Shown: in pieces, positions 36,153 to 37,213 of the stretch
Position numbering within the stretch: position 1 is the first letter of the stretch
Layout of the letters: each line of letters opens with the position of its first letter
NCBI GenBank assembly: GCA_003141715.1
Contig: PLNF01000052.1
Location: 981-38,193, forward strand
Length of the DNA stretch: 37,213 nt
From: Bacteroidales bacterium
GTDB lineage: Bacteria; Bacteroidota; Bacteroidia; Bacteroidales; VadinHA17
Reading direction: 5' to 3'
Program-made: the position numbers and the translations under genes
The notes under the pieces: generated by a model
What the model was told of the DNA's origin: nothing
The model's input: the letters and a program-made list of their open reading frames with translations, nothing else
Database searches by the model: none

Positions 36153-36160
36153 TACTTTTG
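36153..36160 (+). promoter_or_regulatory. Candidate -7 box for the mgtE leader transcript
   Basis: TACTTTTG matches TAnnTTTG. Transcription would start near 36166-36168, giving about 20 bases before the leader ORF at 36187. No clear -33 TTG is seen. Confidence 0.45.
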
Positions 36161-36186: not shown

Positions 36187-36231
36187 ATGGACGACGACCC
36201 GGCGAATATATTAATCTTAACCCTGATCTAG
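36187..36231 (+). CDS. Leader peptide of the mgtE gene (MDDDPANILILTLI)
   Basis: ATG 36187-36189, 14 codons, TAG 36229-36231. The peptide has three Asp and a Pro directly after Met, then a hydrophobic tail. In enterobacteria the mgtA leader MgtL also starts with alternating acidic and Pro residues (MEPDP), and such nascent chains are known to destabilise the ribosome at low magnesium. The ORF lies in the 5' leader of a magnesium transporter, and its stop overlaps an AGGAGG that forms one arm of a hairpin. No Shine-Dalgarno precedes it, as is usual in Bacteroidota. Seen: the ORF and its position. Inferred: that it is translated and regulatory. Confidence 0.55.
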   Translation: MDDDPANILILTLI

Positions 36232-36285
36232 GAGGCTAACCGGTACTTTAGGTAACTTCCTTCTTTATCAGTAAAAGCAAGGAGG
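36230..36285 (+). promoter_or_regulatory. Alternative RNA hairpins controlling the mgtE start
   Basis: Hairpin A: AGGAGG (36230-36235) with CTTCCT (36256-36261), extended inward by TA/TA and CC/GG around a 9-base loop. Hairpin B: CTTCCTT (36256-36262) with AAGGAGG (36279-36285, the mgtE Shine-Dalgarno), extended by CTTT/AAAG (36263-36266 and 36274-36277) with one bulged C. A and B share CTTCCTT and cannot coexist. B hides the ribosome site and A frees it. A ribosome on the leader stop codon would block A. The pairings are seen; the switch is inferred. Confidence 0.55.
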
Positions 36286-36290
36286 TGACT

Positions 36291-37213
36291 ATGACATCAC
36301 TCACAACGTTTTATTTAAGCGGAATAATCGGTAAAGAAGCATTTGGCGCCGATGGTGACGCAATTGGAATAATTAAGGATTTACTTGTTAACACAATGCC
36401 TTCGGGAAACAGTGACCCGAACCAGCAACTCGTAACCGGCATCAGGCTCAGGATAAAAAAGGAAATCAGGGTTTATTCCTTTAAAAGTTTTATTGTTACG
36501 AAAGCAAGAGAAGTTCTTAATGTGACCTGTACCGAACTGATTGAGCTTGGCACGGAGGAGGTTAATAATGGACTTTTGCTCGTTGAAACTATTCTCGACA
36601 AGCAAATAGTGGATATGAATGGTCGCAAGCTTGTAAGGGTTAATGATGTGAGGCTTGCTACTCTGCCTGCAGGAACATTCGCCATTGCTGTTGATATCGG
36701 GATTGAAGGACTCTTGCGCAGAATTGGAATAGCATCACCGATAAAGAGATTACTCTCCATTTTCAAAATAAATATACCTGCGAAATTCATCCTTTGGGAT
36801 GATGTTCAGGCTATCGACCATTCAAATCTTAATATAAGACTTTCAAAGAGTTATGCAAAACTTCATACTCTTCACCCATCGGATATAGCTGATATTCTTG
36901 AAGAGTTGGGTAAAAAATCGAGTATGTCAGTATTTGCATCCCTCGATGAAGAAAAAGCTGCAGATGTTCTTGAGGAACTTGAACCAAATGCGCAAATACA
37001 TATTCTTGAAAACCTTCCTGTAAACAAGGCCGCCGATGTACTTGAAAAGATGCCCGCCGATGAGGTCGCTGACATACTCGATGAACTCGAAGATGATAAG
37101 GCTGAGATGTTATTAAAGGAGATGGATAAAGAATCTTCACAGGAGGTAAGGGACCTGCTGGAATATGACGATGACCGTGTAGGAAGCATTATGACTACTG
37201 ATTTTCTTTCTTT
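36291..37213 (+). CDS. mgtE: MgtE-family magnesium transporter, N-terminal part (cut by window edge)
   Basis: 307 codons to the right edge; the gene continues beyond it. Start ATG 36291, five bases after the perfect Shine-Dalgarno AAGGAGGTGA truncated to its AAGGAGG core. Residues 1-165 contain two PRC-barrel-like blocks (FYLSGIIGKEAFGADGDAIG, then LLVETILDKQIVDMNGRKLV). Residues 185-290 are the MgtE N superhelical domain with repeated LHPSDIADILEELG, DEEKAADVLEEL, PVNKAADVLEKMPADEVADI and LDELEDDKAEMLL units, which in MgtE sense cytoplasmic magnesium. The first CBS domain begins at DDDRVGSIMTTDF. The membrane channel lies outside the window. PRC-barrel plus MgtE is a known Bacteroidota form. 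Manganese or other divalent ions are possible but less likely. Confidence 0.9.
   Translation, partial: MTSLTTFYLSGIIGKEAFGADGDAIGIIKDLLVNTMPSGNSDPNQQLVTGIRLRIKKEIRVYSFKSFIVTKAREVLNVTCTELIELGTEEVNNGLLLVETILDKQIVDMNGRKLVRVNDVRLATLPAGTFAIAVDIGIEGLLRRIGIASPIKRLLSIFKINIPAKFILWDDVQAIDHSNLNIRLSKSYAKLHTLHPSDIADILEELGKKSSMSVFASLDEEKAADVLEELEPNAQIHILENLPVNKAADVLEKMPADEVADILDELEDDKAEMLLKEMDKESSQEVRDLLEYDDDRVGSIMTTDFLS

Follow-up and report, generated by a model that had tools for sequence, protein, structure and literature searches.

The locus considered here raises the question of whether a very short open reading frame (ORF) with an acidic start, located in front of a magnesium-related gene of a Bacteroidales bacterium, controls Mg2+ uptake through its own translation. 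The window, that is, the whole stretch of DNA analyzed, comprises 37,213 nucleotides of contig PLNF01000052.1. According to the original prediction, a 14-codon leader ORF starting with M-D-D-D-P precedes mgtE in this window and may represent an MgtL-like magnesium sensor.

Leader ORF and its genomic context

The predicted ORF is present on the forward strand at 36187..36231, with an ATG at 36187 and a TAG stop codon ending at 36231, and its 14 codons translate as MDDDPANILILTLI. The comparison of leaders and the counts of changes by codon position define a conserved peptide core, MD[DE]xPA, that covers codons 1-6 (36187..36204, forward strand). The candidate -7 box placed before the ORF was likewise found: the window sequence, like most of its relatives, has a Bacteroidota promoter box of the TAnnTTTG (-7) type, TACTTTTG (36153..36160, forward strand), that ends 26 nt upstream of the ATG. 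The distance of 59 bases to the downstream start is also correct, with positions 36232-36290 lying between the leader stop codon and the gene ATG at 36291, and the window sequence contains a Shine-Dalgarno (SD) sequence of this gene, AAGGAGGTGA, at 36279..36288 (forward strand). Two more segments on the same strand were assigned by comparative analysis. The 5' arm, or anti-anti-SD, CTGATCTAGGAGG (36223..36235) overlaps the end of the leader ORF and its stop codon and was located by a swap test and by a helix of 37-49 with 76-89 in an alignment of 28 relatives. The anti-SD segment AGGTAACTTCCTTCTTTATCAG (36250..36271), whose partner is either the 5' arm or the SD, was located by folding, alignment, and swap tests.

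Upstream, the leader is flanked by an aminotransferase gene encoded on the opposite strand, and it is not situated between mgtC and mgtB. Rfam searches of the window identified nothing at the gathering threshold and two chance-like miRNA matches below it; neither the M-box riboswitch nor any other Rfam covariance model reached its gathering score in the window, and nine further loci had no Rfam match. The minimum free energy fold of the window leader was not stronger than those of shuffled sequences (z 0.59), and single-sequence folding was uninformative.

Downstream gene and operon

The assignment of the downstream gene as mgtE did not hold. The gene (36291..37213, forward strand) is cut by the contig end, and domain searches and comparison with relatives identify its product as a PRC-barrel/MgtE_N(/CBS) protein: the part within the window has Pfam matches to PRC and MgtE_N and a weak overlap with FliG_M. 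The full-length protein in relatives has 424-429 amino acids. The L016 copy, the only full-length relative scanned as a whole, contains PRC, MgtE_N, and CBS domains, and the MgtE channel domain PF01769 was not found in it. In the window's own genome, which is 94% complete and in which the downstream gene is cut, searches for CorA and for the MgtE channel domain gave no match.

The second gene in the inspected relatives encodes an Nramp-family transporter, as identified by Pfam and by a PDB search with the L016 copy. The best solved relative of this copy is EleNRMT (7qia, E 6e-104), the second best is an MntH (E 4e-21), and the NDAGG and TTIAPWM stretches are common to the L016 protein and EleNRMT. 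The NRMT signature is given as DxxG-TxxA/T in the part of PMC8806188 that describes it; the L016 copy has both this signature, with residue placement read from the alignment, and homology to EleNRMT. This assignment was made on relatives, represented by the L016 copy; the window contig ends inside the first gene, and its own copy of the second gene was not found. Based on the domain content, the EleNRMT match, and the NRMT signature, we concluded that the predicted operon in relatives is composed of a PRC-MgtE_N-CBS sensor-domain protein gene and an NRMT-type Mg2+ transporter gene, rather than mgtE. The controlled gene is not a P-type ATPase gene of the mgtA type; a PRC-MgtE_N-CBS gene, followed in relatives by an Nramp gene, takes its place.

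Conservation of the leader ORF

The PRC-MgtE_N gene or a related one was found in 43 of 60 relatives, and 282 of 395 genomes in a phylum sample gave some match, mostly weak. A scan of named genomes yielded 79 loci, mostly from metagenome-assembled genomes, under the labels Bacteroidales, Bacteroidetes/Bacteroidota, Bacteroidia, Paludibacter, Prolixibacteraceae, Mariniphaga, and Lentimicrobiaceae. The 122 collected loci were reduced to 100 non-redundant leaders by removal of 16 identical leaders, three loci without a gene start, two N-masked loci, and one with 16 nt of upstream sequence (22 in total). Loci L031-L059 are outside this count of 100; four of them reappear as L064-L067, and the other 25 belong to distant homologues.

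A short acidic ORF starting with ATG and having Pro at position 5 occurs in 89 of the 100 non-redundant leaders, 93-126 nt (median 104) before the gene. The strict form M[DE][DE]xP was present in 82 of the 100 leaders versus none of 5000 dinucleotide shuffles. The ORF filter required Pro5 and an acidic residue at position 2 or 3, so that Pro5 is found in all 89 leaders by definition of the set. Position 2 is Asp in 88 of 89 and is never Glu, position 3 is acidic in 83 of 89 (57 Asp and 26 Glu), position 4 is Gly in 51, Asp in 27, and Tyr in 7 of the 89, and position 6 is Ala in 71. The surrounding signals are retained as well. Of the 89 relatives, 70 have the TAnnTTTG box no more than 70 nt from the leader ORF (median distance to the ATG, 26 nt), as compared with 107 of 1780 mononucleotide shuffles, the variant TAnTTTTA replaces it in 17 of the remaining 19, and GGAGG is found within 20 nt of the gene start in 89 of 100 homologues. 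Similarity elsewhere in the leaders is low: 55 of the 89 can be picked that share less than 35% of their 6-mers.

No ORF satisfying the rule was detected in 11 of the 100 leaders (L024, L066, L067, L090, L102, L111, L115, L138, L140, L155, and L157), and the acidic leader is absent from the 25 more distant homologues (L035-L059). The original prediction had named loss of the ORF or breakage of its frame in relatives as evidence to the contrary; this was not the case in the 89 leaders and does apply to the other 11 and to the 25 distant homologues. Several of these cases deserve a separate description. One leader, L024/L158, retains the conserved stretch at ~104 nt from the gene but reads ATA where the others have ATG; either ATA serves as a rare start codon or the copy has decayed. 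L138, L140, and L157 (two Ignavibacteria-type records and one labeled Bacteroidetes) share an alternative conserved leader, GATTACGCTGT...ACAGCGTA...GAATGGTGATGAATATC, located within ~200 nt upstream of the gene, with no acidic ORF; L138 and L157 had no Rfam match. The Paludibacter-labeled L111 and L155 have another leader, mutually alike, with no acidic MxxxP ORF and no Rfam match.

Selection on the leader peptide

Nucleotide changes were counted as Fitch steps on the tree of the downstream protein for 86 of the 89 leaders. Codons 2, 3, and 5 together had 2, 5, and 40 changes at first, second, and third positions, respectively. The Pro5 codon changed 14 times, with no amino acid change, and 18 sites upstream of the ATG had 14-36 changes each on the same tree. 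The predominance of third-position changes in codons 2, 3, and 5 points to selection on the peptide, and we conclude from these sequence comparisons that the leader peptide is under coding selection. The check attached to the original prediction, namely that relatives keep an acidic/Pro ORF with changes concentrated at third codon positions, thus came out in its favor. Acidic and Pro residues at codons 2-5 are maintained by selection, as expected of an MgtL-type leader. A separate observation concerns codon 6 (36202-36204 in the window), where Ala is encoded by GCG in 69 of 71 leaders; this unexplained bias suggests an extra constraint at this place.

Alternative pairing of the anti-SD segment

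The pairing of leader segments was assessed by a swap test, in which own partner segments were compared with those of other leaders among the 55 mutually dissimilar leaders, with the 5' window set to nucleotides 31-62 from the ATG. The 5' arm paired with its own anti-SD segment at -16.8 kcal/mol versus -11.6 kcal/mol with swapped segments (n=55, permutation P 5e-5), whereas own and swapped pairs were indistinguishable in the control pairing of the 5' arm with the SD (P 0.54, 55 leaders). The anti-SD segment, picked by its 5' partner only, which removed an earlier selection bias, paired with its own SD at -16.2 versus -11.9 for swapped segments (P 5e-5), and the own partner was better in 53 of 55 leaders. 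In an earlier test with shuffled segments, the corresponding values were -16.7 versus -11.0 for the anti-SD and SD and -13.3 versus -12.2, a slight difference only, for the 5' arm and anti-SD.

The distance from the ATG to the beginning of the 5' arm is 36-47 nt in 54 of the 55 leaders and 33 nt in the remaining one. In 42 of these leaders, the arm and the leader stop codon overlap; in 11, the stop codon ends 2-5 nt short of the arm, and in two (L110 and L143) it is located behind the arm. These figures replace a count of 72 overlaps in 89 leaders from the shuffled-segment test, which was rejected as biased because the stop codon determined where the 5' window of that test ended.

The alignment of the 28 relatives showed changes on both sides in 9 of the 17 pairs of the 5' arm hairpins as compared with 4.9 +/- 1.4 after shuffling, and 5 of 500 shuffles were equally high. 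The helix between the anti-SD and the SD was 92% paired within the genus and gave no covariation signal there (105 of 500 shuffles as high), which is explained by its near invariance at this level. Taken together, the comparisons support two mutually exclusive, coevolving partners of the predicted anti-SD segment, the 5' arm or the SD. An anti-RBS segment with two alternative partners, one of them at the ORF, is the layout of mgtQ, and mutually exclusive RNA structures, established here by comparison only, are a feature of MgtL-type leaders.

Leaders before CorA and other genes

The distribution of the leader beyond the PRC-MgtE_N gene was analyzed with the gene-blind pattern TTTG-N(18-46)-ATGGAYGANGRYCCNGM in 395 phylum, 295 order, and 345 class genomes, in samples that overlap and are not additive, and with a scan for the MDDYH form in 91 order genomes. 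The resulting 29 distinct sites, with the duplicates L182 and L233 excluded, were classified post hoc. A TAnnTTTG box is present at 14 of them, and 13 of these 14 precede Mg2+-transport genes: five are located before the PRC-MgtE_N gene (the window's own site, and others recognized by eye), six before CorA genes (by Pfam; L228 and L230 by homology), one before a CNNM gene (L231, a 41-codon ORF ending at the gene start), and one before an MgtE-type gene (L183, a 469-aa frame with MgtE_N and CBS in its first 330 aa). The leader ORF of L183 overlaps the start of its gene, and L183 and L231 do not have the anti-SD layout because their ORFs overlap or end at the gene start. At the last boxed site (L173, in G492), the gene lying 107 nt from the start of MDEGPATRLLTVSMER encodes an OprB-family outer-membrane porin; G492 carries a further leader, L181, in front of its PRC-MgtE_N gene. 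Among the 15 unboxed sites, 14 lie within coding frames and were taken as chance, and the remaining one, L180, is the leader of a PRC-MgtE_N gene and has an imperfect version of the box. A version of the pattern with the SD downstream matched 14 of 295 order genomes; two matches were the known leader (the window's own genome and G023), and the rest, going by the matched sequence only, were considered chance-like.

With one of the CorA hits as query, a homology search identified CorA in 11 of 60 genomes, and its leaders coincide with the gene-blind sites in four genomes. By a looser rule, 9 of the 11 CorA leaders contain an acidic ORF starting with MD[DE]GP, MDEVP, MDGVP, MDDYP, or MDDYH, the last in four of the nine. 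Acidity and Pro are insufficient as a description of the motif, given Gly4 in 51 of the 89 leaders and MDDYH in four of nine CorA ORFs. In eight CorA leaders with short spacing, the 5' arm paired with its own anti-SD at -13.7 versus -7.8 for swapped segments (P 0.0002), and the own partner was better in seven of eight; the pairing of the 5' arm was weak in L191 and L232 (-6.5 and -2.3). L169/L188, L172/L186, and L174, which have an intervening second small ORF, were left out of this test. L169, L172, and L174 are ~250-265 nt long and, by eye, have an apparent second ORF of ~30 codons between the MD[DE]GP ORF and corA, possibly encoding a small membrane protein.

For MgtE, relatives of the G836 protein matched in 40 of 60 genomes, and 30 loci were fetched. 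An MD[DE]xP ORF was present in one of the 30, G836 itself (MDEGP), and the link of MgtE to acidic leaders is therefore weak. Six other MgtE loci have looser acid/Pro frames (MDIP, MDVP, or MEPP) that overlap the gene start; the MDIP/MDVP frames of L201-L205, ~20 nt before mgtE, may be due to chance or may constitute a further variant. Overall, the leaders agree with MgtL-type systems in that a Mg2+-transport gene is preceded by a short ORF within its 5' leader. The idea of an acidic MgtL-like leader for Mg2+ transport holds for the peptide, which is conserved and coding-selected, and does not hold for the gene, which is not mgtE, nor is the element confined to one gene.

Proposed mechanism and alternatives

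With good confidence, we propose from these comparisons that the leader acts as a translational attenuator for Mg2+ uptake that is run by the acidic leader peptide. The ORF and the RNA switch are conserved before Mg2+-transport genes in many Bacteroidota, and the leader is therefore probably a Mg2+-sensing control element similar to the enterobacterial ones. The regulation seems to act on translation, by means of an anti-SD switch like that of Salmonella mgtQ. The leader anatomy is well supported; from there, we infer the translation of the leader, the direction of the switch, Mg2+ as the signal, and ribosome destabilization (IRD) as the sensor step.

Under this mechanism, transcription would start just behind the TAnnTTTG box, and a ribosome would initiate on MDDDPA.... 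At sufficient Mg2+, it would complete the ORF and cover the 5' arm while terminating, the anti-SD would then pair with the SD, and the PRC-MgtE_N-CBS/NRMT operon would remain untranslated. At low Mg2+, the ribosome would stall or drop off at the acidic, Pro-containing start (codons 2-6), leaving the 5' arm, ~36 nt or more behind the ATG, free to capture the anti-SD, so that the SD would be exposed and the Mg2+-uptake operon made. The proposed direction follows from ribosome footprint size, by which the ribosome is placed relative to the 5' arm: at codons 4-6 it would stop short of the arm and at the stop codon it would cover most of it, so that completion would favor silence and early abortion an open SD. 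Likewise, the position of the stop codon at the 5' arm suggests that the structures are set by leader translation. Since the genes import or handle Mg2+, Mg2+-controlled derepression of the operon appears to be the simplest reading. Acidic/Pro starts are described as the cause of inefficient mgtL leader translation at low Mg2+ in the relevant parts of PMC11282234 and PMC11552253, and Asp2/Glu5 are said to act likewise in Salmonella mgtQ in those of PMC8092293.

The sensor step could instead be a sequence-specific ribosome arrest at MD[DE]xP or MDDYH rather than charge-driven destabilization, with a stall at codons 4-6 freeing the 5' arm and turning the gene on in response to Mg2+, EF-P/ABC-F activity, or charged tRNA. 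We regard this as the best-placed alternative and still as unlikely. Asp2 is nearly invariant (88 of 89) while position 3 accepts either acidic residue, position 4 is usually Gly, Asp, or Tyr, and a CorA variant has His5, all of which would fit an arrest sequence; known arrest peptides, however, usually need a longer chain in the tunnel, and the motif matches the acidic/Pro logic of mgtL and mgtQ. Acidic early codons can also pause ribosomes without drop-off, and EttA relieves such pausing, according to the part of PMC11282234 on this factor.

Ordinary amino acid attenuation, in which scarcity of charged tRNA for Pro or Asp would stall the ribosome and open the transporter gene, is improbable. 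It would account for the conserved Pro5 and has a parallel in the Salmonella mgtP leader ORF, which responds to charged tRNA-Pro as far as PMC8092293 covers it, but the leader has a single conserved Pro codon and no run of one residue beyond Asp2-Asp/Glu3(-Asp4), and the controlled genes are Mg2+ transporters. Equally poorly placed, or nearly so, is a leader that acts only by translational coupling or reinitiation, with ribosomes on the ORF required for gene expression; the ORF is close to the gene, but the latter has its own strong SD 59 nt from the leader stop codon in the window, and the two pairings coevolve as exclusive alternatives. Least credible is a conserved RNA element (a Mg2+-binding fold or a protein site) with an incidental reading frame, for which the near-constant GCG codon of Ala6 and the L024 stretch with ATA for ATG would speak, but against which stand the third-position bias in codons 2, 3, and 5 (40 of 47 changes), 14 changes of the Pro5 codon with the residue never altered, and the lack of an Rfam family at gathering score.

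Wider reading

Returning to the attenuator with an acidic leader peptide, we put forward a broader reading tentatively, with somewhat less than even confidence: Bacteroidota may have their own family of Mg2+-sensing nascent peptides, independent in origin from mgtL, corL, and mgtQ, that governs a phylum-specific regulon via anti-SD switches. The family consensus would be MD[DE]xP(A/D/E) before NRMT operons and MD[DE]GP or MDDYH before corA, with one example each ahead of CNNM, MgtE, and OprB porin genes. The near invariance of Asp2 and the Gly or Tyr at position 4 suggest a specific nascent-chain sensor, not negative charge only. A literature search, with subscription journals mostly outside its coverage, found no acidic leader ORF for Bacteroidota Mg2+ transporters.

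If this is true, the leader would be a second instance of Mg2+ sensing by a hard-to-translate acidic N-terminus, found in a distant phylum and with other transporter families. A large natural sequence set would then define what such a peptide must contain, and whether the sensor is charge or a specific peptide becomes a directly testable question. The leaders also delineate a candidate Mg2+ regulon of Bacteroidota with no Rfam match and no report found in the literature search. Bacteroidota are said to use SD sequences little, and the leader offers a clear SD/anti-SD switch in this phylum.

Comparison with known systems

The closest parallel in mode of control is mgtQ, located in the mgtC-mgtB intergenic region of Salmonella. 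As described in the sections of PMC8092293 devoted to it, mgtQ is also a very short ORF, with Asp2/Glu5, and also acts on translation, through alternative stem-loops by which the RBS of a Mg2+-transporter gene is either exposed or sequestered; it differs in having 8 codons, in lying between operon genes, and in serving a P-type ATPase in enterobacteria. The Bacteroidota leader, in contrast, is a 5' leader behind a promoter box, serves the NRMT operon and other Mg2+-transport genes, and has its own consensus.

The leader mgtL of mgtA in E. coli and Salmonella, reportedly the subject of a study by Chadani in 2017, resembles the Bacteroidota leader in peptide sequence, a likeness seen only in the N-terminal start. 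In the portions of PMC11282234 and PMC11552253 that treat it, mgtL has an acidic/Pro start (EPDP), precedes a Mg2+-uptake gene, and forms exclusive RNA structures governed by leader translation; it works via Rho-dependent termination, whereas the visible device here is SD sequestration. Similarly, corL of Salmonella and E. coli precedes corA as a leader ORF and represses it when translated, and it also differs by Rho termination, according to the part of PMC11552253 on corL. Most of the Bacteroidota corA leaders found here have MD[DE]GP or MDDY[HP] and an anti-SD hairpin instead.

The M-box (ykoK) Mg2+ riboswitch is a 5' leader element for Mg2+ transporters that senses directly by RNA and has no ORF. 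Control of Mg2+ transporters from the 5' leader is common to both, but the Bacteroidota leader has an ORF and no Rfam family at gathering score. By gene, position, or phylum, the Bacteroidota leader is not a member of mgtQ or mgtL; rather, it appears to combine mgtQ-like control of translation with an mgtL-like acidic/Pro start.
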